61,282 nt of DNA. Origin: Verrucomicrobiota bacterium. GTDB taxonomy: Bacteria > Verrucomicrobiota > Verrucomicrobiia > Limisphaerales > JACQFS01. The stretch lies in the NCBI GenBank assembly GCA_016199935.1, contig JACQFS010000044.1, positions 1 to 61,282 on the forward strand, in the 5' to 3' direction. A program made the translations under genes and the position numbers. The notes below the pieces were generated by a model. It was not told the origin of the DNA, did no database searches, and saw only the letters and a list, made by a program, of their open reading frames with translations. Shown here in pieces: positions 13,523 through 54,574 of this stretch (its first letter is position 1; each line of letters opens with the position of its first letter).

Positions 13523-14536
13523 TCAGTTGCGCGAGGGAGCCGGGGCGTCCGGACTGGCGAGGCGTTGGCGCAAAGTGGCGAGGGCCGTTCGGGCGGCGGG
13601 TTGCAGCCGCGCGTTGGTCCCGCCGGCCAGTTCGGTGAGCGCGGGCAGATCACGGGCGGAGCCGAGGCGGCCCAGCGCCGCGATGGCGGAGATTTGCAGC
13701 GGCACCGTGGGCGCACCGCCGGCCAGCGCGGTGGCCGAGGGCAGCGCCTCCGCCAGCCCGCGACCGGCGCAGACCTGCAAGGCGGTGATCCGCGCCAACT
13801 CGCCCGCGCTCTCGTCCCGCGCCAGCGCCACGGCGTCCTCGCCGAGCCGGGTAGTGTCGAGTTGCGCGCCACCCAAGGCGAGGTTGTGCAAACCGAGCAG
13901 CGCCGTCCCGGCGATGCTCGAATCCTTCTCGGCGAGCGCCTCCCACAACACGAGCTCGATCTTTTCCCGCTCCGCGCTATTGGCGGCGGGCAGGCGCTCG
14001 TGGAGCACGATCAAATGCTGGATGGCGTAATCGCGCATCACCGCGTCCTGCTCACGGTCGTGGTGGAGGGCGATCAGCACGTCCGTCAGGCCGTCCAGGG
14101 GGCGGACGCCGAGCACGAGCCGGTTGAGCACCTCGTTCTTGACCGCCGCCTCGACCATCAACTCGCCGGGCGTGCCGGGCGCCTTGTTCAGGAGAAATCC
14201 GAGCAGCGCCTTGACCTCGGCCGGCGACAACTCGCGCCCGCTGATTTTCTTGACGGCGGCAAGACGCTCGATGAAGTGCAACTGGTCCGCAACGATGGGC
14301 CGGATGGCGGCGGGGACGGGAGCGGGCCGCATCGGCGGCTGGGCGGCGACTGCGGGATTCGTCGCGGCAGGCTTCAACACCGCTGGCGGCGCGACCGTGG
14401 ACGGAACGCCGTTGGAAACCGCGACGACCGCTCCCCCCGCCGGGCGCGGCTCGCGGTGGTCAGCGGCCCGCCAGACCAGGACGCCCGCCAGCAGGAGGGC
14501 GACGAGCAAAGTCGAAATGACAACCTTTGCCCTCAT
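13523..14536 (-). CDS. Membrane-anchored helical-repeat (HEAT-like) protein
   Basis: The protein has 337 residues. A single N-terminal membrane segment ([18 protein letters not shown]) is followed by a Pro/Ala-rich linker. Then come alpha-helical repeats resembling HEAT repeats: repeated Leu/Ala helices such as [20 protein letters not shown] and [20 protein letters not shown]. It is probably a periplasmic scaffold. Its ATG overlaps the stop of the 1305-residue gene by 4 bp, so the two are translationally coupled. Confidence 0.72.
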
Positions 14537-17500
14537 AGACCGTCCTCGTCGGTGGACCAGAATTCGCCGAGGAACATATCGCCCTGCCACGCGGTGATGC
14601 GATGGCAGACGCTGGTCTTGGCGCTCTTGGGCTTGAGCAAACGCACCGACGCCTGCCCGAGTTCGTCAAAATCCGGCGCGCGCAAATCCTTCGTCACCGT
14701 GCCGTCGTCGAACGTCACGCCGCCGACGTGAACGCCCACCCGCACAACCACGTTGGGAAGGATCGGGTGAACCACGAGGCCCATCTCGATCAGCTCGCTG
14801 CCGTCGGGATACGTTTTCATGAGGCGGAGATAAACCCGCGAGCTGGCGTGGATCTGGAAGCCGTCGGCAGACGTGGCGGTGGCGATGGGGCCGTTGGTGC
14901 CCGCGCGCGCCACGAGGCCGCGCGGTTCCGGCGCGTCCACGGTGAGTCTCCATTGCGCCGCGTCCGCAGTCGCGTCCGCCATCGGCTCCAAGGTCGCGCG
15001 CGGGTCCGCTTCAATGACCGCGCTGGAGGGAACATCCGGCGTGCCCCACAACCGCGATTTGCCCGCCCATGCCGCCGGGGCCGCGCCGAAGGACGCCTCG
15101 ATCACTTTCACGGTGATGCTCCGGCTGGTCGTAGAGCCGTCTGAAGAAAAGAAGGACGCACTCACCGCGAAGTCGCCCGTTTGATCGAACTGATGCGGAA
15201 CCGGCTCGCCGCCCGCGACCTCCTGAGAGCCGGACCCCGCGATTTCGATGCGCGCTTTGCCTTTCGCCTCGGTTTGCGGCGCGGCGGTGAAGAGCAGCGC
15301 GTCGCCTTTGCGAATCACGAGATCGCCCGCGTTGAGCAGGTTGACCGGACGCCAGACGACGCGGTTGGTCAGAATCAATCCTCCATTCTGGAACGAGCAG
15401 ACTACGGTGCTTTCCTGTCCGGCTTTTAAGGGCGCGGCGGCGAACCAGCGCGAGCCTGCTCCCGCCTGCGGAACGAGGCCGTCTGAAATCCCCATCATGC
15501 TCAGGTAGCCGCCGCGCCCTTCGAGGCACGCGGGCGAAACCAGACTGGCGACGGTTCCCTTTTCATTCGCGTCCACGGAGCAGAGGTATCGCAGCCGCTT
15601 CTCGACCCACTCGCTCACGCCGCTGGCGTTCACGCGAATGCCCTTGATGGATTGCAGGCGAATGGCCGCGAGTTCGAGCGAGCGATAGGAGGCGACGTTG
15701 TTCCAATAGATGCGGACGCGATGCTCGCCGGCCCGCAGCCACGGGGTGTAAGTGTTCACCTCGCCGACGCCCTCCGGCGGCGCGGTCAAAATCGAGCGGG
15801 CCAAATATTCGCCATCCACGGAAACCAAAAGCTGGAAGTCGCGGTTGGCATCGCGCCGAATGAAAGAGCCGCCCGTGATTTGCAGCCGGAACATGTCCGC
15901 CTCCGGCACATTGAGCAGATACTCCACCGCGCCGCGCCGGTCCTCGGCGTGAATGGTTTCGCCCTCCGCCTTCCACCGGCCCAGCGTCGAAATGGTTTTT
16001 GCGCCGCTGACTTCCGCCACCGTCTTGACGCCCAGCGTGTCGCGCGTCAACGGGTCGCTGCCCATTTCGCGAACCTCAAGGTAATCGGAAAGCCCGTCCC
16101 CATCGGAGTCGGGATTGCGCGGATCGGTGCCGGCGAGATATTCCTCCAAGTTGGTCAGGCCGTCGTGGTCGAAGTCTTTCCGGGCATCCGTCGGGTCGAG
16201 CGGATTCAAGCCGTGCTTGACCTCCCAGCCATCCGGCAACCCGTCGCCATCGGTGTCCGGGTTATGCGGGTCGGTGCCGGCGAGATACTCCTCAAGATTC
16301 GTCAAGCCGTCACCGTCCGGATCGGCCTTGGCGTCGCTGGCGTCGAAGGGATTCAGTCCGTGCGCCACCTCCCACGCGTCGGGGATGCCGTCGTGGTCCT
16401 TGTCTTCGAGGTCGGTGAAGTTTTTATGGCTCGGTGAGTAAAGCTGCGATTGCGGGATGGGCTGCAACGGCGTGTGCGGCCCGCTCCACAGCAGGCGCAG
16501 TTGGGCGGCGGCACCCGCGTGGTATTCGACTTGCAGCGCGTAGCGATGACCCTCCAACAGGTTGACGCGCGCCTTCTTCTCCCGCAGCGAGTGCGCCTTC
16601 CACTCGTCAATCACCAACTTCCCATCGAACCACACGCGCGCCCCGCCCGCGCTGAGGAGGTGGAAATCGTATTCCTCGCTGTGCTGCGCTTCTACCCAGA
16701 CGACGACGCCGACGAGCACCTCCGGCGGGATCGGCACGCTCAACTTCCCGCGCCAGTTCCAGTTCGTCCCGTCGGGCGAGGAATACGCGGTGAAGTTCGG
16801 CCCGCGCCGGAGCAGGCGCACCCACGGGTCGCTCGTGGAAATTTTTTGCCCGATGTCCACCGGCGACGAGGCCGTGCGGCGATGCTCAAAGCGCACGCCG
16901 CCGCTGATGCTCACCGTGAGCGAGACGAAGGGCGCGTCCGCCGCGAGGCCTTCCCGGATCATCACGCCCGCGCGGCCCAGCGGGCTGTCCACGGCGTCCT
17001 GCTCGACGTGGGTGATGAGTTCCGCGTCGCCACTCCACGGCTGCCAGACGTAGCTGGCCGAGTCGGCGTTGCCGCCGACATCGAAGCCGGCGCTCTCGAT
17101 CCGCAGACTGCCGCTGACACTCGCCACCGAACGCGGCGCGGCGGTTCGTCCGAGATCCGCGTGCTGCCACGGCGAGGGAAGCTTGATCGCGTCGGCTTGT
17201 TCCTTCAGCGCGGCGAGGGCGGGGTTCGGCGTCTCCGGCCGCGGCGGATAAAGTTGCGACTGCCGGACGACCTGTTTGGGAATGGAGGGGCTGCTCCACG
17301 ACAACTTCACGCGCGAACCTTTGCCCTCGTCGGCGTATTCGAGCTTGATGGGATACTTTTTTCCCGCCTCGAAGTTGAACGTGGCGCGCAGTTCGCCCTC
17401 CGGCGCGGCGTCCCATTGCTCGATCACTTTGCGGTTGCCGATCCAGAGGCGGACCTTGCCGCGCGCTTCGAGATAAAGGGAATGCGTCTCCGTGAATTGC

Positions 17501-18450
17501 GGTTCGAGGAAGCCCGCCCAGCGCACGGAGTAGGCACCCTTGGTCAACTCCGCCAGCGGCGGCTTGGCGGACCAGTTGACATCCACGGCCGGGCTGAGGC
17601 GTTCGATCATCGTGTTTTTTGGCAGGTCGAAGTAAAACGCGCGGAGTCCCGTGCCGGTTCCCGGCGTGGCCGCCACCGTGGCTTCCGCGGGCAGGGAACT
17701 CACCTTGAGGCCGGTGAACTTGGCGGAAGTTTGCTGGTTGAAAAAATGACTGCTCGCCGCGACGCCCACGAACGCGCGGCGGGGCATTTCAATTTGCTGC
17801 GAGGTGAGCCATTTCCAATCCTTTCCGTCCGCCGAACACCACGCGCTGATGACGCCGCCTTTGCGGACGAGTTTGAGCCAATACCCCCGGCCCGCCAGAT
17901 TCACCGCGGGGCTGAGGGTGGTTTCCTTCGCGCCCGCGCCCGTCCACATTCCCGACGGCTTGAGTTTCCAGACGCGGTTGGTCGAATCCATGCCGTGCGG
18001 CACGCGGAAAATTTCCGTCACGGCCGGCTCGGCGGCGCGCGCGCGCCACTGGAACGCGATCCCGTTGGTGGGTGTGACGGAGAGCGCGGCGCACGCCGAG
18101 TCGGGCTCCAGGCTCGTGCGAATCATCACCCCGGCCTTGGCGAGACCCACGGCGTCCTTGGCGAGCGTCACGCGGGCGACGACCTCTCCGTCGCCATGGA
18201 GTTGCCGGTGACTGAATGGCAGCGAGTCCTCAGTGCCAAACACACCGACGCCGGCTCCTTGGATGTCGCGCTTTGCCTTGTCGGTGGTGATGCCGGTCGC
18301 AAGCTTGACGCGGCTGACATTGGCGTTGGTCCAGAGCGATGGCGGCTTGGCCGGGTCGGTGGGCGGCAAAACCTGGGAACGGAGGGACACCGCCACCAAG
18401 CCGGCGACCACTGTGCCAACCGCCGCCGCCAATTGTATCCGCCGGTGCAT
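14533..18450 (-). CDS. Large secreted PA14/TSP3 multidomain protein
   Basis: A 1305-residue protein with an N-terminal signal or anchor. The order of parts is: a DUF1349/concanavalin-like domain (about 40-255); a PA14 domain (about 265-405, with QSQLYPP at its end); a second DUF1349-like domain (about 430-580) that runs straight into the second half of another PA14 domain (to about 680); calcium-binding thrombospondin type-3 repeats (about 685-795, e.g. [19 protein letters not shown]); a carbohydrate-binding-like sandwich (about 815-940); and Ig-like segments to the end. Such proteins bind glycans or other cells at the surface. It is coupled to the HEAT-like gene. No protease or glycosidase motif is visible. 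Confidence 0.8.
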
Positions 18451-26995: not shown

Positions 26996-28891
26996 TCATT
27001 GGGCGACGGCGCGGTAGAAACGTTTCGGGTAGGATGGGAAATCGTTGAGGAAAAACTCGACGATGCCGGTGGGTGCGTTCGTGGTGAACAGCGTGCTCCA
27101 GTTGGTCGGGGAGAAACTGGTGGTCGCCTCGACCCGGTAGGCGAGGCCGGGCGGTCCTTGGATTAGCACACTCCAAGTGCCGGTGGGGGTTACCAGCGGC
27201 CGCAACAGCGGCGGCAACACGAGGTTTGCCGTATCCGTCACGAAGGTGAAGGTGTCCAGGCTCTTGAAGTAATCCAGCACGTAGCCATTGCCTGCGATGC
27301 GACTGATGGTTGGCGGCAGCGAACCCAACCCGGCGGTGATCACCTTGTAGCGCGTTTCCGGCGGCGGGTTGAAGCCGTTGGCCACCTGCGCGGACAGGCG
27401 GCCGTTGAGCGGGGTCGCGGTGGCAAAGCGGACTTGCCCAAAGCCGGTGCCCACACCGACACCGCTGAGTGTAAAGCGAAGTTCGCTACTCACGGCGGAA
27501 GTGAAGCCGCCGCTGAAAATGATCAACCCCATTGCTCCATCCACCGTCCCGGTGTTGTTGAAGGCCACGGCGAGGGTGGTGGTGCCGGCCCCGGCCGACT
27601 TGCGGAAGGTGCCGCTGTTGGTGAAGACCTCGCCGTAGGCATTGTTGAGCAACTGATCGGACTGCACGTCGAACAGCGCCCCGGCCTGGTTGTCAATCAC
27701 GCCCCGGTAGGTGCCGCCGTCGTTCCACACGCGCAGGGTCACGTTGGTCCAGTTGACCGTGCCGCGGTTGGTCAGCGCGTTATACAGGTTGCGCGTGCCG
27801 GCCCCGCCGATGTTCACCACCCCGTTGCTCGCCACCGTCACCGGCCCGTAAAAGTTCGTGCTGTAAAGCGACGCCCCGCCGAGGGTCAGGTTGGTGATGC
27901 TGCCGCCCTGAAAACTCGGCGCCACGTAAAGACTCCCGCCCGCCAGCGTCAGCCCGCTGATCGTGTCGGTGGTCAGCGTCAGCGAACCGCCCGTCAACTG
28001 GCACAGCCCCGGGCCGGTGAAGGTGGGCGTGCCGCTCTCCACAAAACTGCCGCCGTTCAGCAACAGGCTGGTGCCGTTCGCCGCGCTGTAGCTGCCGCCC
28101 ACCGAGCCGCCGCCATTCAGGTTCAGCGTGCCGCTCTGCACCTGCACCGTCCCGGTGTTGTCGAAAGCCACGGCGATGGTGGTGGCACCGGCGCCGGCCG
28201 ACTTGCGGAAGGTGCCGCTGTTGGTGAAAACCTCGGAGCCGTAAGCATTGTTGATCAGTTGATCCGATTTCACGTCGAACAGCGCGCCTACCTGGTTGTC
28301 GATCACGCCGTAGTAAGTAAGGGGATAGTTCCACACGCGCAGGGTCACGTTGGTCCAGTTGACCGTGCCGCGGTTGGTCAGCGCGTTATACAGGTTGCGC
28401 GTGCCGGCCCCGCCGATGTTCACCACCCCGTTGCTCGCCACCGTCACCGGCCCGTTAATATCCCCGCCAATCCAGTTCAGGACCGCGCCGGCATTGTTCT
28501 GGAATATGCCAGGCCCATTGAGAGTGCCGCCGGCCAGATCCAGCACGCCGTTGGCGTTGTTCGTGGAGGCACCGTTGATCGTGAGGCTGCTGGCGGAGTT
28601 GGTCAACCGCTGCTGTCCGCTGGCACCGCCGAGCGTCAGGCTGTTGACCGTGGCGGCCACGTCCAGCGTCACGGTGTAGGTGCCGCTCTGGGTGATGAGC
28701 GCGGTGTCGGAAATTCCGGGCACCTGGTTCGGATTCCAGTTGGTGGCCTGGCTCCACAGCCCGCCGTTAAGGTTCGTCCAGGTGATCGCGGTCGCGTGCG
28801 CGTCCCGGGCGCAAGCCGCGAACAGGAGCGCACCGGAGCACAGCTGTAGAAAACGGTTGAACGTGGCTTGGCTGACCTTGTGTAGATTCAT
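26996..28891 (-). CDS. Secreted beta-strand-repeat (autotransporter-like) protein
   Basis: A 631-residue protein with a signal peptide ending HATA. It then has the opening AITWTNLNGGLWSQATNWNP that is typical of autotransporter-like beta-helix repeats in Verrucomicrobiota/Planctomycetes. A roughly 200-residue block occurs twice (VNIGGAGTRNLYNALTNRGT..., SGTFRKSAGAG...), and 127 bp of DNA is identical between copies. The last 50 residues (LAYRVEATTSFSPTNWSTLF...RFYRAVAQ) form the C-terminal module common to exported proteins of this phylum. No beta-barrel translocator is present, so it is probably released or held by another anchor. Confidence 0.8.
   Translation of the reverse strand: MNLHKVSQATFNRFLQLCSGALLFAACARDAHATAITWTNLNGGLWSQATNWNPNQVPGISDTALITQSGTYTVTLDVAATVNSLTLGGASGQQRLTNSASSLTINGASTNNANGVLDLAGGTLNGPGIFQNNAGAVLNWIGGDINGPVTVASNGVVNIGGAGTRNLYNALTNRGTVNWTNVTLRVWNYPLTYYGVIDNQVGALFDVKSDQLINNAYGSEVFTNSGTFRKSAGAGATTIAVAFDNTGTVQVQSGTLNLNGGGSVGGSYSAANGTSLLLNGGSFVESGTPTFTGPGLCQLTGGSLTLTTDTISGLTLAGGSLYVAPSFQGGSITNLTLGGASLYSTNFYGPVTVASNGVVNIGGAGTRNLYNALTNRGTVNWTNVTLRVWNDGGTYRGVIDNQAGALFDVQSDQLLNNAYGEVFTNSGTFRKSAGAGTTTLAVAFNNTGTVDGAMGLIIFSGGFTSAVSSELRFTLSGVGVGTGFGQVRFATATPLNGRLSAQVANGFNPPPETRYKVITAGLGSLPPTISRIAGNGYVLDYFKSLDTFTFVTDTANLVLPPLLRPLVTPTGTWSVLIQGPPGLAYRVEATTSFSPTNWSTLFTTNAPTGIVEFFLNDFPSYPKRFYRAVAQ
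27723..27849. repeat. 127-bp direct repeat, copy A
   Basis: Identical, as far as I can read, to 28329-28455, 606 bp away in the same gene. Flanking parts of the two blocks are similar but not identical, which suggests recent gene conversion of an older duplication. Confidence 0.88.
28329..28455. repeat. 127-bp direct repeat, copy B
   Basis: The second copy of the repeat at 27723-27849, coding for VASNGVVNIGGAGTRNLYNA and the following residues. Recombination between the copies would remove exactly 202 codons in frame. Confidence 0.88.
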
Positions 28892-29094
28892 AATTCGGCT
28901 TTCGCTTGGCCCGAAGAATTTCAGACAGTGTCACACTGAACCGACCCCGCAAAAATACAAGGGACGATTTTGCCAAACGGCGGTGCCGGGGCGCAGCGGA
29001 CGCGAGTCATCCCCGGTTCGCTTAAGAGCAGATTGCGATTGCGAGGTCGCGCGCTTCATTGACCGCCGCCCTTCGGAAACCTACGCTCGCCCCC

Positions 29095-29952
29095 GTGGCT
29101 GCCGAACCGAACAAACGGTCGTTCGCGATGCGCGTCCCGCTCTGGGCGCAACCGCTCCCGCGCGCGTATCTGGATTTCGTCGGCCGCGTCCTCCTGCGCA
29201 CGCTGGAGACCATCCACGGCATCGGCGCCTTTTCCCTCATCACGCTCGGCGTGGCGGTGACGAAGTTCAACCGCGCGCCGCGCGTGCTGCGCCCGATGAT
29301 CCGCGAGCAGGTGTATGTCGCGGGGCTGCGGTTGCTGCCGTTCGTCACGTTCCTCGGCTTCGCGCTCGGCTTCGTCGTCATCGGCCAGACGGTCGCGCTG
29401 CTCAACCGTGTGAGCGTCGGCAACCTCGCCGGCACGGTGATGGTGACGGTGGTCGTGCGCGAACTCGGCCCGCTCTTCACCGCGCTGCTCGTGCTCGCGC
29501 GCGTGGGCACGGCGAACGTCATCGAGCTCGGCAACAGCCGCGCGCGCGGCGAGGTCGAGGCGCTCGAGGCGCTCAACATTGACCCGGTGCATTATCTCGT
29601 CGTGCCGCGCGTGTTCGGCATGGCCATCGCGATCACGTCGCTCACGGTTTATCTCATCATCACGGCGCTGCTCAGCGGCTACCTCTTCGTTTTCCTCCAG
29701 GACGTGCCGCTCTCGCCCGGCGATTATTTCGCGCAACTCGCCACTGCGCTTGTGTGGGAGGACTTCGCGCTGCTCGCCGGCAAGACGGCGATCTTCGGTT
29801 CGATCATCGCGCTCGTCACCTGCTACGAGGGGCTCTCTCGCCCGTTGCGGCTGGAGGATGTCGCGGGTGCCTCGACGCGCGCGGTGTTGTTGAGCGTCGT
29901 CGGCTGTGTGTTCGTGGACACGCTGTTCATCATCGTCTATCTGGTGATGTGA
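29095..29952 (+). CDS. mlaE: MlaE-type ABC transporter permease
   Basis: A membrane protein of about 285 residues in the MlaE/DUF140 family. It has five or six hydrophobic segments and the family core VVVRELGPLFTALLVLARVG, then E-L-G-N and VEALEALNIDPVHYLVVPRV. It forms the inner-membrane channel that moves phospholipids between the inner and outer membranes. The start is uncertain: GTG at 29095 (used here), ATG at 29128 or TTG at 29059. It is the first gene of an mlaEFD-like operon. Confidence 0.9.
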   Translation: MAAEPNKRSFAMRVPLWAQPLPRAYLDFVGRVLLRTLETIHGIGAFSLITLGVAVTKFNRAPRVLRPMIREQVYVAGLRLLPFVTFLGFALGFVVIGQTVALLNRVSVGNLAGTVMVTVVVRELGPLFTALLVLARVGTANVIELGNSRARGEVEALEALNIDPVHYLVVPRVFGMAIAITSLTVYLIITALLSGYLFVFLQDVPLSPGDYFAQLATALVWEDFALLAGKTAIFGSIIALVTCYEGLSRPLRLEDVAGASTRAVLLSVVGCVFVDTLFIIVYLVM

Positions 29953-29958
29953 AATGAA

Positions 29959-30747
29959 ATGAGCGCGAGCGACAGCCCATCCCTCATCGAACTGCGCGAC
30001 GCGGCGATTGCCCCGCCGTCGGCGCCGGGCGTCCTCGTGCTCGAACACCTCAACTGGCGCATCGCCGCCGGCGACTTCTGGGTGATCGGCGGCCTGCAAA
30101 GCTCCGGCAAGAGCCTGCTGCTCCATTGCGCCGCGGGCCTCCTGCCGCCCGCGCAGGGCAGCCTGCGCCTCTTCGATCAGGAGATCGCGGAGCTGTCGCG
30201 CGAGGACGCCTTCCCGCTGCTGCTGCGCGTCGGGCTGGTGTTTGAAAACGATGCGCGCCTCTTCACGCGACTGACCCTCGCCGAAAATGTCGCGCTCCCG
30301 CTGCGCTATCATTTCAACGCGAACGACGCGGACGCCACCAGCCGCGTGCAGCCCGTGCTCGAGGCGACCGGTCTGCTCGACTTCGCCGGTCTGTCCGCCG
30401 GCGACGTTCCGCGCACGCTCCGCCAGCGCGTCGGGCTCGCGCGCGCGCTCGTGCTCCAGCCGGACGTGCTGCTGATTGACAACCCGCTCGCGCGCCTCGG
30501 CCGCAGCGACGCGTGGTGGTGGCGCGATTTCCTCAAGCGCCTCAACACCGGCCACGCGCTCACCGCCGGCAAGCCGGTGGCCATCGTGGTCACGACGGAC
30601 GACTTGCGCGCGTGGAGTCCGACGGGCCGGCAGTTCGCGCTGCTCGACGGCCGCGGGCTGGTGTGCTTCGCTTCGCGCGACGAACTGGAAACGTCCGCGC
30701 ACGCGCTGCTGCCCGAACTGTTCGCCGACGCGCGCGTGGCGGTCTGA
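29959..30747 (+). CDS. MlaF-like ABC ATPase with degenerate catalytic motifs
   Basis: A 262-residue protein that aligns along its length with MlaF and sits in the mlaF position, 6 bp after mlaE. Walker A keeps its Lys but reads GLQSSGKS (45-52). The Q-loop Gln is Glu96 (VFEND). The LSGG signature is replaced by VPRT (150-153). The catalytic Glu of Walker B is Asn (LLIDNP, D174-N175), and the H-loop His is Thr (VVTTDD, about 211-215). It may bind ATP but is unlikely to hydrolyse it in the usual way. Confidence 0.8.
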   Translation: MSASDSPSLIELRDAAIAPPSAPGVLVLEHLNWRIAAGDFWVIGGLQSSGKSLLLHCAAGLLPPAQGSLRLFDQEIAELSREDAFPLLLRVGLVFENDARLFTRLTLAENVALPLRYHFNANDADATSRVQPVLEATGLLDFAGLSAGDVPRTLRQRVGLARALVLQPDVLLIDNPLARLGRSDAWWWRDFLKRLNTGHALTAGKPVAIVVTTDDLRAWSPTGRQFALLDGRGLVCFASRDELETSAHALLPELFADARVAV

Positions 30748-30752
30748 AATTT

Positions 30753-31877
30753 ATGGCGTTCAACGATCTCACTCCCCAACTCCGCACCCGCCTCAGCCGC
30801 GTGGAGCGCTTCGTCGGCCTCTTCGTGCTGCTCGCCACGCTGCTGATGCTCGGGGGCTTTTCCTATTACCTCTGGCACACCGCGCAGCGGAAGGGCTGGC
30901 TGCTGGAAAAATATCCCTATTACACCTACGTCAGCGCGGGCACCGGGCTGAAGGTCCACGATCCCGTGAAGCTCATGGGCTTCCCCTGCGGCGAGATCAC
31001 GGTGATCAAGCCGATGCGGCCGACCTATTACCTCAACATCTACGTCGAGTTCGTCGTGCACGAGCCGTATCACGATTACATCTGGAACGACTCCGCGGTG
31101 AAGATCAACGCCTCCGACTTCCTCGGCGGGCGCTTTTTGGAAATCACCAAGGGCGGCTCCACCGGCCGCACCAACGGCCTTTCCCCGACGTATGACACCG
31201 AGGTGGTCGGCAACCGGCCGGTCGTCACCGGCATCTGGTCGCAGAAGACCGATGCTTACGGCCATCCTGATTGGACCAACAGTGGCGCCTACAAACCCTG
31301 GAAGCGCACCGGCCCGGAAAAGTATTGGCTCCCGATGGACGAAACCCCCGCGCTCACCGAGCGGCTCGATGCCGTCGTGAAAAAAGTCGAGGAGGCGCTC
31401 CCCGGCATCCTCGCCCTCACCAACCAGATCCACACCGTGCTCACCAACGTCGCCGCCATCACCTCGAATCTCCATGACCCCAACGGCTCGCTCGGCCAAT
31501 GGCTCTTTCCGGTGGACACCAAGGCGAAGCTCGACGGCGTGCTCACCAACGCCAACGCCACCATCACCACCGCCCACACCACGCTCACCAACGTCACCAC
31601 CACGCTTGGCACCGCGCGCACGTTCATGCAAGACACCGACACCAACCTCAGCACCACCGTCTCCAACCTGAACCTCACGCTGCTGAACCTCGCCAACATC
31701 ACCAGCAACCTCCACTCGCAGATTGACCAGAACACCAACCTCGTCACCGGCATCAACAAGGCCATCCTCGACGCGGACGACCTGATGCAGGGATTGAAGA
31801 AGCACTGGCTCCTGCGCTCCGCCTTCAAGACGAACGCGGTGAAGACCAACACGCCGCCGGTGAAGGTGAAGAAGTAA
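30753..31877 (+). CDS. mlaD: MlaD-type MCE-domain lipid-binding protein
   Basis: A 374-residue protein with a single N-terminal membrane helix (VGLFVLLATLLMLGGFSYYL) and one MCE domain (about 60-155, including GLKVHDPVKLMGFPCGEIT). A long C-terminal part (220-345) is rich in Thr and Asn with regular hydrophobic spacing, probably a helical needle. It binds phospholipids in the periplasm for the MlaE channel. It starts 5 bp after the ATPase gene. The tail is longer than in E. coli MlaD (183 residues), closer to PqiB- or Mce-like proteins. Confidence 0.88.
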   Translation: MAFNDLTPQLRTRLSRVERFVGLFVLLATLLMLGGFSYYLWHTAQRKGWLLEKYPYYTYVSAGTGLKVHDPVKLMGFPCGEITVIKPMRPTYYLNIYVEFVVHEPYHDYIWNDSAVKINASDFLGGRFLEITKGGSTGRTNGLSPTYDTEVVGNRPVVTGIWSQKTDAYGHPDWTNSGAYKPWKRTGPEKYWLPMDETPALTERLDAVVKKVEEALPGILALTNQIHTVLTNVAAITSNLHDPNGSLGQWLFPVDTKAKLDGVLTNANATITTAHTTLTNVTTTLGTARTFMQDTDTNLSTTVSNLNLTLLNLANITSNLHSQIDQNTNLVTGINKAILDADDLMQGLKKHWLLRSAFKTNAVKTNTPPVKVKK

Positions 31878-32189: not shown

Positions 32190-33545
32190 CTACGAAGGCA
32201 AGCGTTGTTCCACCAGCGGCCAATGGTGCTCCAAAGGCGAGAGGTCGAAACCGGCGGTCGCTTGCATGGCGAAGTCAGCTATCGGTTCATGCGGCACGGC
32301 ATCGGCAGCCGGTGCAGGAATGTTTGGGAGCAGGTCCAGCATGGGGAGCGTGGGGTCGGCGTTTTCCAAAATATCCTCCTGCTCGATGCGGCGGACAAAA
32401 TCGCCCATCGGCTCCGCGCCCTTGGCGAAACGCTGAAGGATGGTGCGGATGGCCTCGGGGCTGTTGTCCACGCCAATCCAGCGGCGGCCCAGGCGATGCG
32501 CGGCTTCGAGGGTGGTGCCGGAACCGGCGAAACAATCGAGCACGAGGTCGCCGGCATTCGACGAAGCGGCGATGATGCGCTGCATGAGCGCGGGGTTCTT
32601 TTCGGTGGGATAGCCGGTGACGCGGATGTTTTGATTGTGGGCATCCCTGAAATCCATCCAGATGTCTTGCACGGGGACGCCGTGGCTTTCATCGAGGTAG
32701 ATTTTGCGACGCGGGTTGCCGGTCGGCGACCAGTAGATTTCACCGCGCGCGTCCATTTCATCAAGGGTGCTGGGCAGGTATTGCCAGTGTTTGCCGGGCG
32801 GCGGGTTCATGCCCCGCCAAGGCTTTCCGGTTTCGCCGTTGCGCGTGCCGGGTGCATGGACGGGGACTTTTTTGTAGCGCCGTCCGGTGCCGGGTTCGAC
32901 GTAGCTATACTCGCGTGCGGCGCGTTCGTCCGTCCATGCCTCGACGGGACGATGCCACACGTAGTCTTCGGTCTTGGAATAAAATAGGATGAAGTCGGCA
33001 ACGTTGCCGTAGGTTTTGCGAGTGTAGTTTTTCGGATTGCACTTCTTGCGCGTGATCCAGTTGCGGAAGTTTGCGCGGCCGAAGATTTCGTCCATCAGCG
33101 CCTTCGCGTGGAAGGCCATGTTTTCATCGAGGTGGACATAGATGGAGCCGTCGTCTGCCAGCAACTCGCGTAGGAGAATCAGCCGCTCGCGCAGGAACTC
33201 CAAGTAGGCCGGGCCTTCGAGCAGGTCACTGTAAGCGTCTGCTTGTTTGCGCGACTGAAAGACGCTGCGCGTGGCGTAGGGCGGGTCTATGTAGATGAGA
33301 CGCACTTTCCCGCGCACCGCCGTGTCGCCGAGCAGTGCGGCGAGCACGGCTAAGTTTTCACCGTAGCACAGGCGGTTGGGCGCAGGGCCATCGGCCGGCG
33401 TCCAGACAGTTTCGAGCACGGCGGGTTCGGTCTGGAGGATTTCCGCGACGGGGCGCTTGCCAGCGTAGGTCAGGGAGATTTCCCCGCCCGTAGTCGCGCT
33501 GGGCGCGCCGGCCCGTCCATTGGGATTTGGAATGCCTGTCGCCAT
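32190..33545 (-). CDS. Site-specific DNA methyltransferase (beta class)
   Basis: A 451-residue N6-adenine or N4-cytosine methyltransferase. Catalytic motif IV is DPPY (LIYIDPPYATRSVF) and comes before the SAM-binding motif I (LVLDCFAGSGTTLEAAHRLG), which marks the beta group used by type II and type III systems. It is coded 2 bp after the presumed nuclease gene and should protect its sites. GC is slightly lower than in the flanking operons. Confidence 0.9.
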   Translation of the reverse strand: MATGIPNPNGRAGAPSATTGGEISLTYAGKRPVAEILQTEPAVLETVWTPADGPAPNRLCYGENLAVLAALLGDTAVRGKVRLIYIDPPYATRSVFQSRKQADAYSDLLEGPAYLEFLRERLILLRELLADDGSIYVHLDENMAFHAKALMDEIFGRANFRNWITRKKCNPKNYTRKTYGNVADFILFYSKTEDYVWHRPVEAWTDERAAREYSYVEPGTGRRYKKVPVHAPGTRNGETGKPWRGMNPPPGKHWQYLPSTLDEMDARGEIYWSPTGNPRRKIYLDESHGVPVQDIWMDFRDAHNQNIRVTGYPTEKNPALMQRIIAASSNAGDLVLDCFAGSGTTLEAAHRLGRRWIGVDNSPEAIRTILQRFAKGAEPMGDFVRRIEQEDILENADPTLPMLDLLPNIPAPAADAVPHEPIADFAMQATAGFDLSPLEHHWPLVEQRLPS

Positions 33546-33547
33546 AG

Positions 33548-34438
33548 TCAGGAAAGCAGCCAGATGCGTGTAAGACGATCGGGGACCATGCGGAGCGTAG
33601 CCACGAGGATGCGCCCTTTGTGGCTGCGTTCCAACGCAGCATAGTCATTCCACATCGAGCCGAGGAGCAGGCCGGGGCCGTCGTTGATGAAAACCACTTT
33701 GGTGCGTAATTTGCGCTTGCGCGCGTAGCCTAGAACTTCGTCGGCGCAATTGCGATAGCCGCCCGTGCGGTCGTCCTCCTGCGCACCACCACGGTCGGAA
33801 TCGTAGCGCGCAAGCCCGACGACCAGCACGTCTCCCGTTGACGGGTCGCGGATGACGAAATCCACGGGCCGGTCGGGCTTCGGGTAATCAGGAAAGATTT
33901 CACCGAGCAGGACGTCTTTGCCCGCGCGCTCCGGGCCGGTGATGGGCAGATCAGGGAAGTGCTCGCGGAACAGCGCGAACAAACGCTCAGTCAGGTCGTA
34001 GCCTTTCTTGCCACGATCCTTGTATTCCCACAGCACCGCACACAACGCCTCATCCGGCATCGGGCGCGTTGAGAAAGCGGCCTGCACTTCGTTGATTGGG
34101 CGGAAGCCTTTGCCGAACTCTTCGCAAATCTTCGCCGCCTTCGACTTTTGCTTGAGCATCTCGACTGGCGTCTCGGGGCTGGCGTATTTCCGAAACACGC
34201 GCGCGAGTTGGACCCGCATCCAGCCGTTAGTCTGCTCTGCAATTTGCAGAAAAAGCCGCGTCGAAGATTCGGAAGCGAGGAGCAATTGCCCGAAAAGCAC
34301 GAGCACTGGCTCGTAGAGTTTGCAGGCGTCCTTGAGGATGTCGGGGTAGTATTCTCCCGTCGCTAGCGTAATCCAGTTGCGCCCGTCGGGCTTGTAGTCG
34401 GCGAAACTTTTTCGCGGTGTTGGCATGGCAGCAGGCAC
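33548..34438 (-). CDS. Putative restriction endonuclease partner
   Basis: The 296-residue protein lies directly before the methyltransferase gene in the same direction, the usual place for the nuclease of an R-M pair. The middle is helical. The C-terminal third reads DRPVDFVIRD (about 190-200), VLVVGLARYDSDRGGAQEDD (about 205-225) and then KVVFINDGPG, a pattern of Asp and acidic residues on beta strands that could be a diverged PD-(D/E)XK core. I do not recognise a named family, so the nuclease role rests mainly on position. Confidence 0.65.
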   Translation of the reverse strand: MPAAMPTPRKSFADYKPDGRNWITLATGEYYPDILKDACKLYEPVLVLFGQLLLASESSTRLFLQIAEQTNGWMRVQLARVFRKYASPETPVEMLKQKSKAAKICEEFGKGFRPINEVQAAFSTRPMPDEALCAVLWEYKDRGKKGYDLTERLFALFREHFPDLPITGPERAGKDVLLGEIFPDYPKPDRPVDFVIRDPSTGDVLVVGLARYDSDRGGAQEDDRTGGYRNCADEVLGYARKRKLRTKVVFINDGPGLLLGSMWNDYAALERSHKGRILVATLRMVPDRLTRIWLLS

Positions 34439-34510
34439 GCAGGCTTTCTTAACGCAGCCGCTACGTGGTGACGAGGAAATGTTGGCGTGATCCTAACCGT
34501 CACCCTCGCT

Positions 34511-37267
34511 TCACAGCATCCCGCCCCGTTTCCTTAGCACCCACTCCACCGTCAGCAGCAGGACCACCGCGGCGAACCACCACCAGCTCTGCCACAGGAT
34601 CATCTCCGTCTCCACCACCTTGCTGCGGCTGAGCGGCGCGAGCTTGTCCACCAACTGCCCGAACTCCTCCTCGCGCAGATACTCGCCGCCCGATTGCTCC
34701 GCGAGGTCGCGCAGCAGCGGCTCGTTGCACGTCAGGTCGGCCAGCTCCGCGCTGCCCTGCGGCTCCACCACGAAGCTCGCGCGCGCCTTCAGTTCCGCCT
34801 CCGGCACGCCCTCGACCTGCACGCGCACCTCGTAGCTCCCCTCCGCCAGCGGCGCGGTGCGCGTGCGGAACACGCCGGAGTCGTTGTCGTCGGAATTGAG
34901 CGCGAGGCTCGCCACCTTTTTTCCGTCGCGGAAAAGTTGCGCCTCCGCCCTGGCGCGCGTGAGCAGCTTGCCCTCGGCGTCGCGGATTTGCGCGCGGAGG
35001 TCGGCCTGTTCGCCGGGCTGGTAGCTGGCGGGGCCGGCGTCGAGCGAAACGTGCTTGTCCGCGACGGGGTAGGGCGCGTCCATGATCCAGCGCGACATCT
35101 GATTCCAAAACTTCTGGTGATGCAGGTCGGCGACCTCGAAGCGCCAGCGCCACGATTCCTCGAACGCGCTGTAGAGCACGCGCCCCGCGCCGTAGCGGCG
35201 AAAGACGAGCGCCGGCACCGTGCGCGTCCCCTGCGTCGCCGTGAGCAAAACGTCGGTGGCCGGCAGCGGAATCGTCGGGGCCATCCAGTGCGGCGCGGCG
35301 AGGCGCGCCCAGAGCGCGGAGTTGTCGGCGGCGTTCGGGAGCAGCGTGAGCGGCGTGGTGGTGGCGCCGCGCGGCGTGAGCGCGAGCTTGAGGTCCGCGC
35401 CTTCGAGCGCGCCGCCCTGCCACGCGACGGGCAGCAGCGGCGCGAGCGGGCCGCTGGTGTAGTTCGCGAGCTGCTCCTGCCGCCCGTCCACGAAGATGAT
35501 GCCGCCGCCGCGTTTCTCGACGAACTCCTTGAGCCACGCGAGTTCCTCGTTCTTCAAGTAGCCCGGCGGCAGATCGCCGAACACGACGAGGTGATACGCG
35601 AAGAGCGACTGGCGGTCGGCGGGAAACTTCCCCGCGCCCGTGCCGCGCGGCCACGGCTTGGCCTCGCCGCCGCCCGCGCCCGCGAGCAGCGCGTTGACCT
35701 CCCACTGCTCGTCGCGCTCGAAGAGGTTGCGCAGGTAGCGGAACTCCCAGCGCGGCCGGCCGTCGAGCAGCAGCACCTTCGGGCGCTGCGTCACGGCGAG
35801 AAAGCGGAACGTGCCGGTGTTGTTGTTCGTCTGCCGCTCGCCGCCAAGCACCGTGAGGCTGACGTTCAACGTCACCGGCACCGCGCCGAACTTCACATCG
35901 CCGTCGGTGCTGGCAAATTTCGCGAGATCCTTCACGGGAAAATCGAACGGGATCGAACGGCGCGTGCGGCGCGTGGTCGCGAGCGTCTGCGCCCAGACGG
36001 ATTTGCCGTTCACCTCGATCTTCGCGACGAAGCTAGCGTTCGCCGGCAGCTCGTCCTTCACCACCAGCTCGCCCTTGAGCCGGTCCTCGATGAAGACGGA
36101 CTGCGGCGCGTTGACGCCGACGAACGCGAGGTCCTCCGGCGCGGTCTGCGGCCCGAGGCCGACGGTGTAAATGGGCAGCGTGCGCGCGCCGAAGATGCGC
36201 GCGAGCGTGAGCGGCGACTCGGGGCGGTTGTGCTGGCCGTCGGTGAGCAGCACGATGGCGCCGCGCTCGGTGGTCGGGAGCTGCTCGGCGGATTTTTTCA
36301 GCGGCGCGTTGAAGTCCGTCGTGAGTCCGGCGGGCGTGAGCGCGAGCTTCGCCGGTGGGTCGGGCCGCTCGCTGCCCTCGGCCGCGCTGCCGCGCCACAG
36401 CACGGCCTCGTCGCCGCCGAACGCGCGCAACTCGACGGAATGTTTCTCGGCGAGCCGCGCGAGCACGCGGTTGGTGAGCAGCATCACTTCGAGCCGCTGC
36501 ACGCGCGTCGCGGCATCGAACTGCTTCAACGCCTCCTTCACGCCCGCGTCGCCGCCGTCGGCGATCCGCGCGAAATAATCGTCGAACGCCCGCTGCATGG
36601 ACTGCTCGTAGCGGGCGATGTCGAGGTCGAGCTGCTTGAGTTGCGCGACGAGTTGTTTCGCGGCCGCCGGGGATTTCGCGGGCGAGTCGCTCACCCGCTG
36701 CGCGTGCGCAACCGGCCCGCTGCGGAAGCGGCGCTCGATGTTGTCACGCTTCGGCCACGTCGCGGACTGCACCGCATCGAGCCGGTCGGCGGCGGCGCTG
36801 AGATGCGACGCAATGGTCTTGAGCGAAGTCTTCAGCTCCTTCGCTTCCGGCGGCCGGCGGCTGGTGGCGACGATGGCGACGCGCGCCTTGCGGACGGACT
36901 CGAGCGCGAGTTCGAGCGTCGCATCGTAACTGGCGTCGTGCAGCCAGCCATTTTGCTGCGCGACGAGGAGCTTGCGGCGGATTTCCATGCCGGGGTCCGC
37001 GAGGCCCATGCTCGCCGAACTGTCCGCGATCAAAATAATCCGCGCCATTTCCCCGATGACGTCGGTGCGCCGCAGCACCGGGCCGGTGAGCGCGAGCAGC
37101 AAAAGAAAAATGGCGAGGCTGCGCAGCGTGGGCAGCAGCCAGCGCGCGGCGTCGGTGCGCGTGCGCGTCTCGCGCCAGTAAAGCCAGAACGCGAGCAGCG
37201 CCACCGCCAGCGCGATTCCCGCGCCGAGCCAGAGGGTGAAGTCGCCGATGAAACGCAGCGTGGTCAT
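34511..37267 (-). CDS. Membrane protein with VWA and glutamine-amidotransferase-like domains
   Basis: A 918-residue protein. Two membrane helices at the N-terminus (about 10-30 and 45-65) precede a von Willebrand A region whose MIDAS begins LIADSSASMG. Near residue 500 comes RPKVLLLDGRPRWEFRYLRN, the start of a class-I glutamine-amidotransferase-like fold common in these proteins (no catalytic Cys-His-Glu expected). Then come Ig-like parts (ADLRAQIRDAEGKLL) and a last membrane helix (WWWFAAVVLLLTVEWVL). It is the final gene of the MoxR cluster, separated from the BatA-type gene by a palindromic element. Confidence 0.82.
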   Translation of the reverse strand: MTTLRFIGDFTLWLGAGIALAVALLAFWLYWRETRTRTDAARWLLPTLRSLAIFLLLLALTGPVLRRTDVIGEMARIILIADSSASMGLADPGMEIRRKLLVAQQNGWLHDASYDATLELALESVRKARVAIVATSRRPPEAKELKTSLKTIASHLSAAADRLDAVQSATWPKRDNIERRFRSGPVAHAQRVSDSPAKSPAAAKQLVAQLKQLDLDIARYEQSMQRAFDDYFARIADGGDAGVKEALKQFDAATRVQRLEVMLLTNRVLARLAEKHSVELRAFGGDEAVLWRGSAAEGSERPDPPAKLALTPAGLTTDFNAPLKKSAEQLPTTERGAIVLLTDGQHNRPESPLTLARIFGARTLPIYTVGLGPQTAPEDLAFVGVNAPQSVFIEDRLKGELVVKDELPANASFVAKIEVNGKSVWAQTLATTRRTRRSIPFDFPVKDLAKFASTDGDVKFGAVPVTLNVSLTVLGGERQTNNNTGTFRFLAVTQRPKVLLLDGRPRWEFRYLRNLFERDEQWEVNALLAGAGGGEAKPWPRGTGAGKFPADRQSLFAYHLVVFGDLPPGYLKNEELAWLKEFVEKRGGGIIFVDGRQEQLANYTSGPLAPLLPVAWQGGALEGADLKLALTPRGATTTPLTLLPNAADNSALWARLAAPHWMAPTIPLPATDVLLTATQGTRTVPALVFRRYGAGRVLYSAFEESWRWRFEVADLHHQKFWNQMSRWIMDAPYPVADKHVSLDAGPASYQPGEQADLRAQIRDAEGKLLTRARAEAQLFRDGKKVASLALNSDDNDSGVFRTRTAPLAEGSYEVRVQVEGVPEAELKARASFVVEPQGSAELADLTCNEPLLRDLAEQSGGEYLREEEFGQLVDKLAPLSRSKVVETEMILWQSWWWFAAVVLLLTVEWVLRKRGGML

Positions 37268-52446: not shown

Positions 52447-52609
52447 GCTTCGAGTAAATCCCAACCCTTCGCGTGAGTCAACGGAGGCGTGACCAGGGCC
52501 GGCCCAGGCTCGCAGAAGTGGAGAACCGCGCCTTGACCGTCGTCGGCCGTTCGATAAGTCGTTTTCCTTGTTCTCAAACGCGTTTGCTTACGGCATCGTC
52601 CGCGGCCCG

Positions 52610-54574
52610 ATGTTCACGCTTTCAGAAGTCAGCAAATCCTACGGTGGTCGCGCGTTGTTTGAAGACGTCACGATTCAGATCAACCGCGACGACCGGCTCG
52701 GCCTCGTCGGCCCCAACGGCGCGGGCAAATCCACGCTCTTCAAGCTCATCCTCGGCCAGGAGGAATGCGACCACGGCATCATTACCTCGATGCGCGGCGC
52801 GACCGTCGGCTTCCTGCCGCAGGAGAGCGCGCCCGTGGGCGAGGAGACCGTGCTCGAACTCGCCACCGCCATCTCGCCCGAGTTCGTCGAGGTGCGGCGG
52901 AAACTGAAAGAGTGGGACGCCGCACATCCCGACGACGTTGATCCGCACGACAATCTTCACGCGCGCTACGACGAGATGGGCGGCTGGCAGCTCGACGCGA
53001 AGGCGAAGAAAATTCTCGCCGGCCTCGACTTTCGTGAGAGCGACTTCCACCGGCCGGCGCGCGAGTTGAGCGGCGGCTGGGTGATGCGCGCGCATCTCGC
53101 GCGGCTGCTCGTGCAGGAGCCGGACCTGTTGATGCTCGACGAGCCGACGAACCACCTCGATCTCGAGACGCTGCTGTGGTTTCAGGAATATCTCTTCGCG
53201 TATCCCGGCGGCATCGTGCTGATCTCGCACGACCGCGAGTTTCTCAACACGCTCGTCACGGGGATCATCGAGCTGCGGCAGCAGAAACTTTTTTCCTACA
53301 CCGGCAATTACGACAACTTCCTCGAACAGCGCGCCGCCGCCGAGGCGCAGCAGCTCGCCGCGCACAAGAACCAGCAGCGCGACATCGCGCGGCTCCAGGA
53401 ATTCGCCGATCGTTTCGGCGCCAAGGCCAGCAAGGCGTCGCAAGCCCAGAGCAAGCTCAAGCAGATCGAGCGCATGGTGAAGATCGAGGCGCCCGAGTCG
53501 TCCGGGCCGGTCGTCGGTTTTTCCTTTCCGCAGCCGGTCCGCAGCGGGCAGCGCGCCCTCAAGCTGGCCGGGTTGCACCACGCCTACGGCGATAACGTGG
53601 TGTATCGCGGCGTGGATTTCGAGGTCGAGCGCGGCCAGCGCGTCGTGCTCGTCGGGCCGAACGGCGCGGGGAAATCCACTTTGCTCAAGCTCGCGTCGGG
53701 CACGCTCCCGGTGCAGCGCGGCGAGCGCATCCTCGGCCACAACGTCAAGGAGGGCTACTACGCGCAGTATCGCTCCGAGATGTTCCAGATGAACCGCACC
53801 GTGCTGGCGGAGGCGCTCGACACCGTGGCGCGCGTGACCGAGCAATCCGTCCGCACGCTGCTCGGCGCGTTTCTGTTCCGCGGCGACGACGTTTTCAAAA
53901 AGGTCAGCGTGTTGAGCGGCGGCGAGAAGAGCCGGCTCGCGCTGGTGAAGATCCTCCTCGACCCGCCGAATCTTTTGCTGATGGACGAGCCGACGACGCA
54001 CCTCGACATGGCGAGCATTGATGCGCTGGTCGGCGCGCTGAAGAACTTTACGGGCACGCTCATTTTCATCAGCCACGACGTGTATTTCATCCGCGCCCTG
54101 GCGAACCGCGTGTTGCACGTGAACGCCGGGGCGCTGACGAATTATCCCGGCGACTACCAATACTACCTCGACAAAACCAAGGCCGCCTCGGCGCGGCTCG
54201 GGCTCACCGCCGGAGAAAAGGCGGTGGTGTCGTCCAGCCGCACGGTTGCACCCGAGCCACGCGAGCCGGGACTTTCGCGCAAGGAACAAAAGCGCCTCGA
54301 GGCACAACAGCGTCAGGCGCGTTCTGCGGGCGAGCGTGATGCGCGCCGGCGCGTGGCCGAATTGGAAAAGCGGATCGCCGATTGCGAGGCCAAGCAGTCG
54401 GAATACGCGCAGGAGCTGGAGAACCCCGCGACCTACGAGAAGGCCGGCGCCGCGATGCACCTCAACCGCGAGTTGAGCGTGGTGGTGGACGAACTCACCC
54501 GGCTCCAGGCCGAGTGGGAGGAGGCGGCGACGAAGCTGGCGGCGGAAGAAGCGGCGTCGAAAACGGCCGGCTGA
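52610..54574 (+). CDS. ABC-F family ATPase
   Basis: A 654-residue protein with two ATP-binding cassettes and no membrane part: Walker A LVGPNGAGKSTLFK and LVGPNGAGKSTLLK, signatures LSGGW and LSGGEKSR, Walker B MLDEPTNHLD and MDEPTTHLD. Between them is the P-site linker region (about 230-310, rich in Gln, Ala and Lys), and at the end a coiled coil (540-650, rich in Ala, Glu and Arg), as in Uup. ABC-F proteins act on the ribosome. The GreA/B-like gene follows 2 bp later. Confidence 0.93.
   Translation: MFTLSEVSKSYGGRALFEDVTIQINRDDRLGLVGPNGAGKSTLFKLILGQEECDHGIITSMRGATVGFLPQESAPVGEETVLELATAISPEFVEVRRKLKEWDAAHPDDVDPHDNLHARYDEMGGWQLDAKAKKILAGLDFRESDFHRPARELSGGWVMRAHLARLLVQEPDLLMLDEPTNHLDLETLLWFQEYLFAYPGGIVLISHDREFLNTLVTGIIELRQQKLFSYTGNYDNFLEQRAAAEAQQLAAHKNQQRDIARLQEFADRFGAKASKASQAQSKLKQIERMVKIEAPESSGPVVGFSFPQPVRSGQRALKLAGLHHAYGDNVVYRGVDFEVERGQRVVLVGPNGAGKSTLLKLASGTLPVQRGERILGHNVKEGYYAQYRSEMFQMNRTVLAEALDTVARVTEQSVRTLLGAFLFRGDDVFKKVSVLSGGEKSRLALVKILLDPPNLLLMDEPTTHLDMASIDALVGALKNFTGTLIFISHDVYFIRALANRVLHVNAGALTNYPGDYQYYLDKTKAASARLGLTAGEKAVVSSSRTVAPEPREPGLSRKEQKRLEAQQRQARSAGERDARRRVAELEKRIADCEAKQSEYAQELENPATYEKAGAAMHLNRELSVVVDELTRLQAEWEEAATKLAAEEAASKTAG

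Follow-up and report, generated by a model that had tools for sequence, protein, structure and literature searches.

How might an Mla-type transporter work when the protein in the position of its ATPase lacks almost every motif for ATP hydrolysis? The locus that raises this question is a tight three-gene operon on the plus strand of the window, by which we mean the whole 61,282-nucleotide stretch of Verrucomicrobiota DNA (order Limisphaerales) analysed here. The operon encodes a MlaE-like permease (29059-29952; PF02405 at 172.9 bits, its place in a tree and its conserved residues), a pseudo-MlaF of 262 amino acids with the fold of an ABC nucleotide-binding domain (29959-30747; motifs, an AF2 model and a PDB match), and a MlaD-like MCE protein of 374 amino acids (30753-31877; PF02470 at 38.1 bits, an AF2 model and Foldseek), with gaps of 6 nt between mlaE and pseudo-mlaF and 5 nt between pseudo-mlaF and mlaD. 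The adjacency of a MlaE permease and an MCE-domain MlaD identifies an MlaEFD-type MCE transporter, and the open reading frame between them is real: as had been read from the letters of the sequence, a full-length protein occupies the mlaF position. This protein passes as an ABC ATPase domain (PF00005, ABC_tran; 65.3 bits, cut-off 25) and fails the NCBIfam MlaF equivalog NF008809 (67.3 bits, cut-off 441). The gene order is stable across 80 related loci (E-F-D in 71, E-F in eight and F-D in one), and no fourth conserved operon partner was seen among them, the top flanking family occurring in at most 8 of the 80.

At the level of individual residues, the Walker A motif, GLQSSGKS (residues 45-52; 30091-30114, plus strand as for all features of this gene), fits the pattern GxxxxGK[ST] of a functional MlaF ATPase and keeps its Lys. 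The remaining motifs of such an ATPase are absent from the alignment: Glu96 stands at the Q-loop Gln position (30244-30246), VPRT (residues 150-153; 30406-30417) replaces the LSGG signature, and Asn175 replaces the catalytic Glu of Walker B beside a retained Asp174 (30478-30483), all as the sequence-only reading had stated. It had also described the H-loop His as changed to Thr; the His is indeed lost, but the column aligns with Asp214 (30598-30600), Thr213 being its neighbour. Two relatives (L016 and L017) read ACHD in this column, and the window protein has no His in either register. Judged by these residues, the protein is almost certainly a true pseudo-ATPase: a nucleotide-binding domain of the MlaF type that has lost its catalytic activity. 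In E. coli MlaF, the K47A and E170Q mutants are described as failing to complement (PMC7367683), and E170Q is reported to lose ~80% of ATPase activity, with some remaining (PMC7784689); since the loss in E170Q is not total, weak turnover is possible where the P-loop remains.

To see how far the pattern extends within the order, 97 genomes of a Limisphaerales-order set were queried with the window pseudo-MlaF. A degenerate orthologue was found in 76 of them, the window's own genome included, the other 21 having a weaker best match. In the aligned columns of these 76 proteins LSGG never occurs, and the catalytic Glu and the Q-loop Gln are each found in four; the P-loop Lys is present in 70 and the Walker B Asp in all 76, and Arg occupies the position of the first signature Gly in 51. 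Set against the retention of Lys and Asp, the absence of LSGG and the rarity of Glu are far from chance. As the orthologues were picked by their similarity to a degenerate protein, this sample could be biased towards degenerate forms. A second sample was drawn from a scan of GTDB contigs (140 relatives found, 80 loci kept, with titles that include Verrucomicrobia subdivision 3, Pedosphaera and Limisphaerales); its alignment of 76 rows, made up of the window sequence and 75 of these 80 loci, has LSGG in none, Glu in four, Gln in two, Lys in 74 and Asp in all 76. The letters LSGG do occur in three of the 80 loci (L139, L150 and L154), near the C-terminus and away from the signature position. We also note that four loci (L099, L115, L117 and L120) carry the order's operon under the titles Klebsiella pneumoniae, Proteobacteria and Akkermansia muciniphila; these are probably mislabelled MAG records. 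The claim that an Mla ATPase has lost Gln, LSGG, Glu and His thus holds for the window protein and describes an order-wide pattern.

The degenerate gene is under selection. Using 14 pairs of related genomes, with reading frames trimmed to their homologous part, dS was measurable in 10, and in all 10 the dN/dS of pseudo-MlaF lay between 0.124 and 0.382, indicating purifying selection. In nine of the 10 it was above that of MlaE, so the constraint on pseudo-MlaF is looser than that on its permease. Close homologues with intact motifs were looked for in the order and not found, and recent decay or sequencing error, a concern raised at the outset, is ruled out by the like losses in 76 of 97 order genomes and by dN/dS values well below 1.

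Beyond the order, 288 genomes of the phylum were searched with the window MlaE; as the query was MlaE, this search is free of the selection bias noted above. It led to MlaE genes adjoining an even more degenerate ABC-fold protein that has no P-loop at all. A profile (A3) built from 19 such proteins and run on the same 288 genomes matched 37 at an E-value of 2.1e-40 or better, with a clear gap to the next match at 5.1e-28, and all 37 lie outside the window's class. The alignment of 35 sequences from this deep clade shows that here the P-loop is lost as well. By their coordinates, the pseudo-MlaF genes lie within 200 nt of a MlaE match in 34 of the 37 genomes; no MlaE match was seen within that distance for G186, G200 and G352. 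In G186 (contig C7, 17779-18348) and G200 (contig C242, 6613-7185) the listed MlaE genes (L188 and L192) are on different contigs from the pseudo-MlaF genes and have no recognisable ABC neighbour. A third degenerate protein in the MlaF position, again without a P-loop and lying between MlaE and MlaD, was found in L216 (3148-3924), in a genome of the window's class that belongs to a different order. The canonical comparison set is small (n = 16), and the alignment used for the motif counts placed L216 among the canonical proteins.

These findings bear on whether the altered site could still be a cryptic ATPase that hydrolyses by a non-canonical route, for example through the Arg at the first signature Gly. 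The frequency of that Arg and the retention of Lys and Walker B Asp across the order would fit such a site. The joint loss of Glu, Gln and His and the disappearance of the whole P-loop from the deep clade speak against it, and we regard it as very improbable.

To understand how the degenerate forms are related, we placed 55 MlaE proteins in a carefully built maximum-likelihood tree, from which L207, E. coli itself, had been removed. The MlaEs linked to a pseudo-MlaF (18 from the order, 20 from the deep clade, and L216) form one clade with support of 100/99, within which the order and deep sets each receive 100/99; the MlaEs that lie next to an intact MlaF are not part of it. A quick tree of 127 rows, in which L207 was mislabelled as deep, agrees. 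The placement of L216 is unsure owing to its long branch. The simplest reading is that MlaF catalysis was lost once, in an ancestor of both the order and the deep clade, although sister lineages may instead have lost it in parallel.

The permease itself has kept its conserved features. The window MlaE retains the equivalents of the E. coli R-E pair (R97/E98), K205 and D250, together with the coupling helix (EVEALEALNIDPVHYLVVPR), which is conserved alongside pseudo-MlaF. Across the canonical, order and deep groups, Glu98 is present in 124 of 124 sequences and Lys205 in 123 of 124; Arg97 is found in 11 of 15 canonical sequences, in 71 of the 73 from the order (the other two having Lys) and in all 36 deep ones, and most deep-clade sequences have Ser in place of D250. 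In the E. coli structure, Arg97 contacts the lipid phosphate, and single Ala mutants of these residues are reported to have no effect on growth in that species (PMC7790496).

Two further explanations can be judged from this conservation. If the operon were no transporter at all, and pseudo-MlaF a regulatory or dominant-negative subunit of a lipid-binding sensor or brake, then catalytic death combined with a kept nucleotide-binding P-loop would be fitting; we consider this improbable, as the lipid-contact and charged residues of MlaE and a full-length MlaD are conserved alongside and the P-loop is gone in the deep clade. Alternatively, MlaE might draw on a different source of energy, for example the proton motive force, with pseudo-MlaF serving as a scaffold. 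There is precedent among MCE systems with a non-ABC partner in the inner membrane: PqiA is said to act by passive flow, through an ATPase yet to be named, or by proton motive force (PMC10897342). The conserved charged network of order and deep MlaEs is the canonical one, and no charged membrane residue was seen that both sets share and canonical MlaE lacks, a weak argument against such a drive, and we rate this explanation as unlikely as the sensor.

What, then, has been retained in pseudo-MlaF? The AF2 model is a complete ABC domain (pLDDT 95.4, pTM 0.92) whose best PDB match is MlaF (6xbd_I; E 3.1e-22, TM 0.84); comparison with MlaF 7ch8_J gave Z 29.5 and an rmsd of 2.6 over 245 residues, with several further ABC domains scoring within 1 of this match. 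Information content was calculated for the canonical, order and deep groups, in that sequence, with L216 left out of the canonical set. It fell sharply at the catalytic positions, being 3.91, 1.80 and 1.39 bits at the signature, 4.90, 1.67 and 1.48 bits at Gln92, and 5.39, 1.96 and 1.24 bits at His203, for whole-protein means of 2.57, 2.02 and 1.90 bits. In contrast, the stretch that follows the Q-loop, residues 93-113 in E. coli MlaF, is at least as well conserved as in canonical MlaF (2.75, 3.00 and 2.95 bits). From general ABC architecture, we take this stretch to border the groove that receives the coupling helix. We consider it probable that pseudo-MlaF docks structurally on MlaE. Hydrolytic motifs have thus been lost from a protein whose predicted fold is intact and which is under purifying selection, and its MlaE partners across the phylum share common ancestry. 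Separately, four Trp residues (W33, W41, W187 and W188) are nearly invariant and family-specific in the order's pseudo-MlaF; E. coli MlaF has none.

The genome was also checked for another mlaF, as the sequence-only reading had proposed, and it contains two further mlaEFD operons (contigs C213 and C142) with intact ATPases that read LSGGM, DEP and THD or SHD. The idea that the Mla systems of this cell have pseudo-MlaF as their sole ATPase is thereby ruled out. At least two MlaE genes are present in 72 of the 76 pseudo-MlaF carriers, so the dead version usually sits beside ATP-driven ones. Of the four carriers that depart from this, three have genomes that are 66-73% complete (G061, G073 and G078); in the fourth, G092, the MlaE of the pseudo-operon was missing from the short piece of contig.

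This coexistence raises the possibility of a shared or mixed motor, in which a canonical MlaF from another operon drives MlaE and forms a heterodimer with pseudo-MlaF as its regulatory partner; there are known ABC transporters built as heterodimers in which one site is degenerate (PMC12038006, PMC5216877). The two intact MlaF copies in the genome and the frequency of multiple MlaE genes among carriers are in its favour. However, a composite ABC site combines Walker A, Walker B, Q-loop and H-loop from one subunit with LSGG from the other, and a canonical subunit paired with a pseudo-MlaF would form one site lacking LSGG and another lacking Glu, Gln and His. No full site would arise in such a heterodimer, and a structural pseudo-ATPase is therefore favoured; the deep clade lacks the P-loop as well. 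We consider a mixed motor unlikely, if somewhat less so than the sensor or the proton-driven permease.

The explanation that we favour, with moderate confidence, is a lipid bridge with a long MlaD that works without ATP hydrolysis of its own, and in which a conserved pseudo-ATPase probably serves MlaE as a structural clamp. The coupling helices of MlaE would still be docking sites for two copies of pseudo-MlaF; the clamp may be stabilised by nucleotide in the window's order, where the P-loop survives, whereas in the deep clade nucleotide binding probably plays no part. Pseudo-MlaF would hold MlaE in a conduit-competent state, in which phospholipid could move between the permease and the tube formed by MlaD with no power stroke from ATP, flowing down a concentration or chemical gradient, and the cell's two intact MlaEFD systems would do the ATP-driven work. 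That lipid transport in pseudo-MlaF systems is independent of hydrolysis seems to us rather more probable than the opposite; that flow through the complex is passive, and the direction in which it would run, we infer. The options first put forward for such a transporter, another energy source, passive flow or a second ATPase, all still stand, with hydrolysis-independent flow now favoured and not proven. In evolutionary terms, we suggest tentatively, at slightly less than even chances, a de-energised ABC lineage, in which an ancestral Verrucomicrobiota MlaEFD lost hydrolysis and kept its fold as a clamp, so that a former pump became a conduit for lipid, passive or gated, beside ATP-driven copies.

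The MlaD of the window has an N-terminal transmembrane helix, a single MCE domain and a long helical C-terminal region (residues 201-350), in which AF2 places helices at 201-240, 254-293, 299-326 and 328-350 (mean pLDDT 72.5, low towards the C-terminus); the Foldseek matches of the model are Mce1 and MlaD chains. In its predicted combination of an MCE domain with a long helical region it resembles the MlaD of Veillonella parvula, whose MlaEFD bridge also has the three-gene mlaEFD layout (PMC10665443), although the MlaF of the window is predicted to be catalytically dead. The same source proposes the long MlaD as a transenvelope bridge, describes the MlaDs of the PVC group as having no beta-barrel, and omitted MlaF from its phylogeny because the annotation was uncertain. 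The single-chain AF2 model of the window MlaD shows no C-terminal beta-barrel, in a region where its confidence is low.

Compared with MlaFEDB of E. coli, Acinetobacter and Pseudomonas, the window system has homologous MlaE, MlaD and MlaF-fold subunits, and MlaF chains are the top structural matches; it differs in lacking the hydrolysis motifs of MlaF and in its long MlaD (374 amino acids), and neither mlaB nor mlaC was seen in the operon. LetAB and PqiABC share the MCE tunnel and have an inner-membrane partner with no known ATPase (PMC10897342). However, PqiA and LetA have a fold of their own, unlike MlaE, whereas the window system keeps an ABC permease and an ABC-fold subunit. In the degenerate site of heterodimeric ABC transporters the catalytic Glu and other motifs are likewise replaced and the fold is kept, but these have one impaired site of two (PMC12038006), whereas in the window system no combination of partners restores a full site. 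Our search of the open-access literature, by title and the start of the abstract, found no published family of degenerate MlaF.

For MCE systems in general, the route of phospholipid between the membranes, its direction and the need for ATP are open questions. If correct, a natural Mla family with dead ATPases in several classes would mean that the architecture can function without ATP hydrolysis of its own, and it would be an unusual ABC transporter in having lost both nucleotide sites and yet been long conserved. Dead and intact operons within one genome offer a ready-made comparison for testing the need for ATP. For annotation, it would be a caution against naming every protein in the MlaF position an ATPase.

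We also note several other genes in the window. Upstream of the operon, on the minus strand (26996-28891), lies a gene for a protein of 631 residues that matches no Pfam family and has internal repeats (e.g., VNIGGAGTRNLYNALTNRGTVNWTNVTLRVWN, present twice); it may be a repeat protein of the cell surface. On the other side, 32190-37267 (minus strand) encodes an N6/N4 DNA methylase (PF01555) and adjoining same-strand genes for proteins of 296 and 918 amino acids without a Pfam match, possibly a restriction or defence cassette. Farther away are a protein of 1305 residues containing PA14 domains and bacterial TSP3 repeats (14533-18450, minus strand) and an ABC-F type protein with two ABC domains, ABC_tran_Xtn and ABC_tran_CTD (52568-54574, plus strand).
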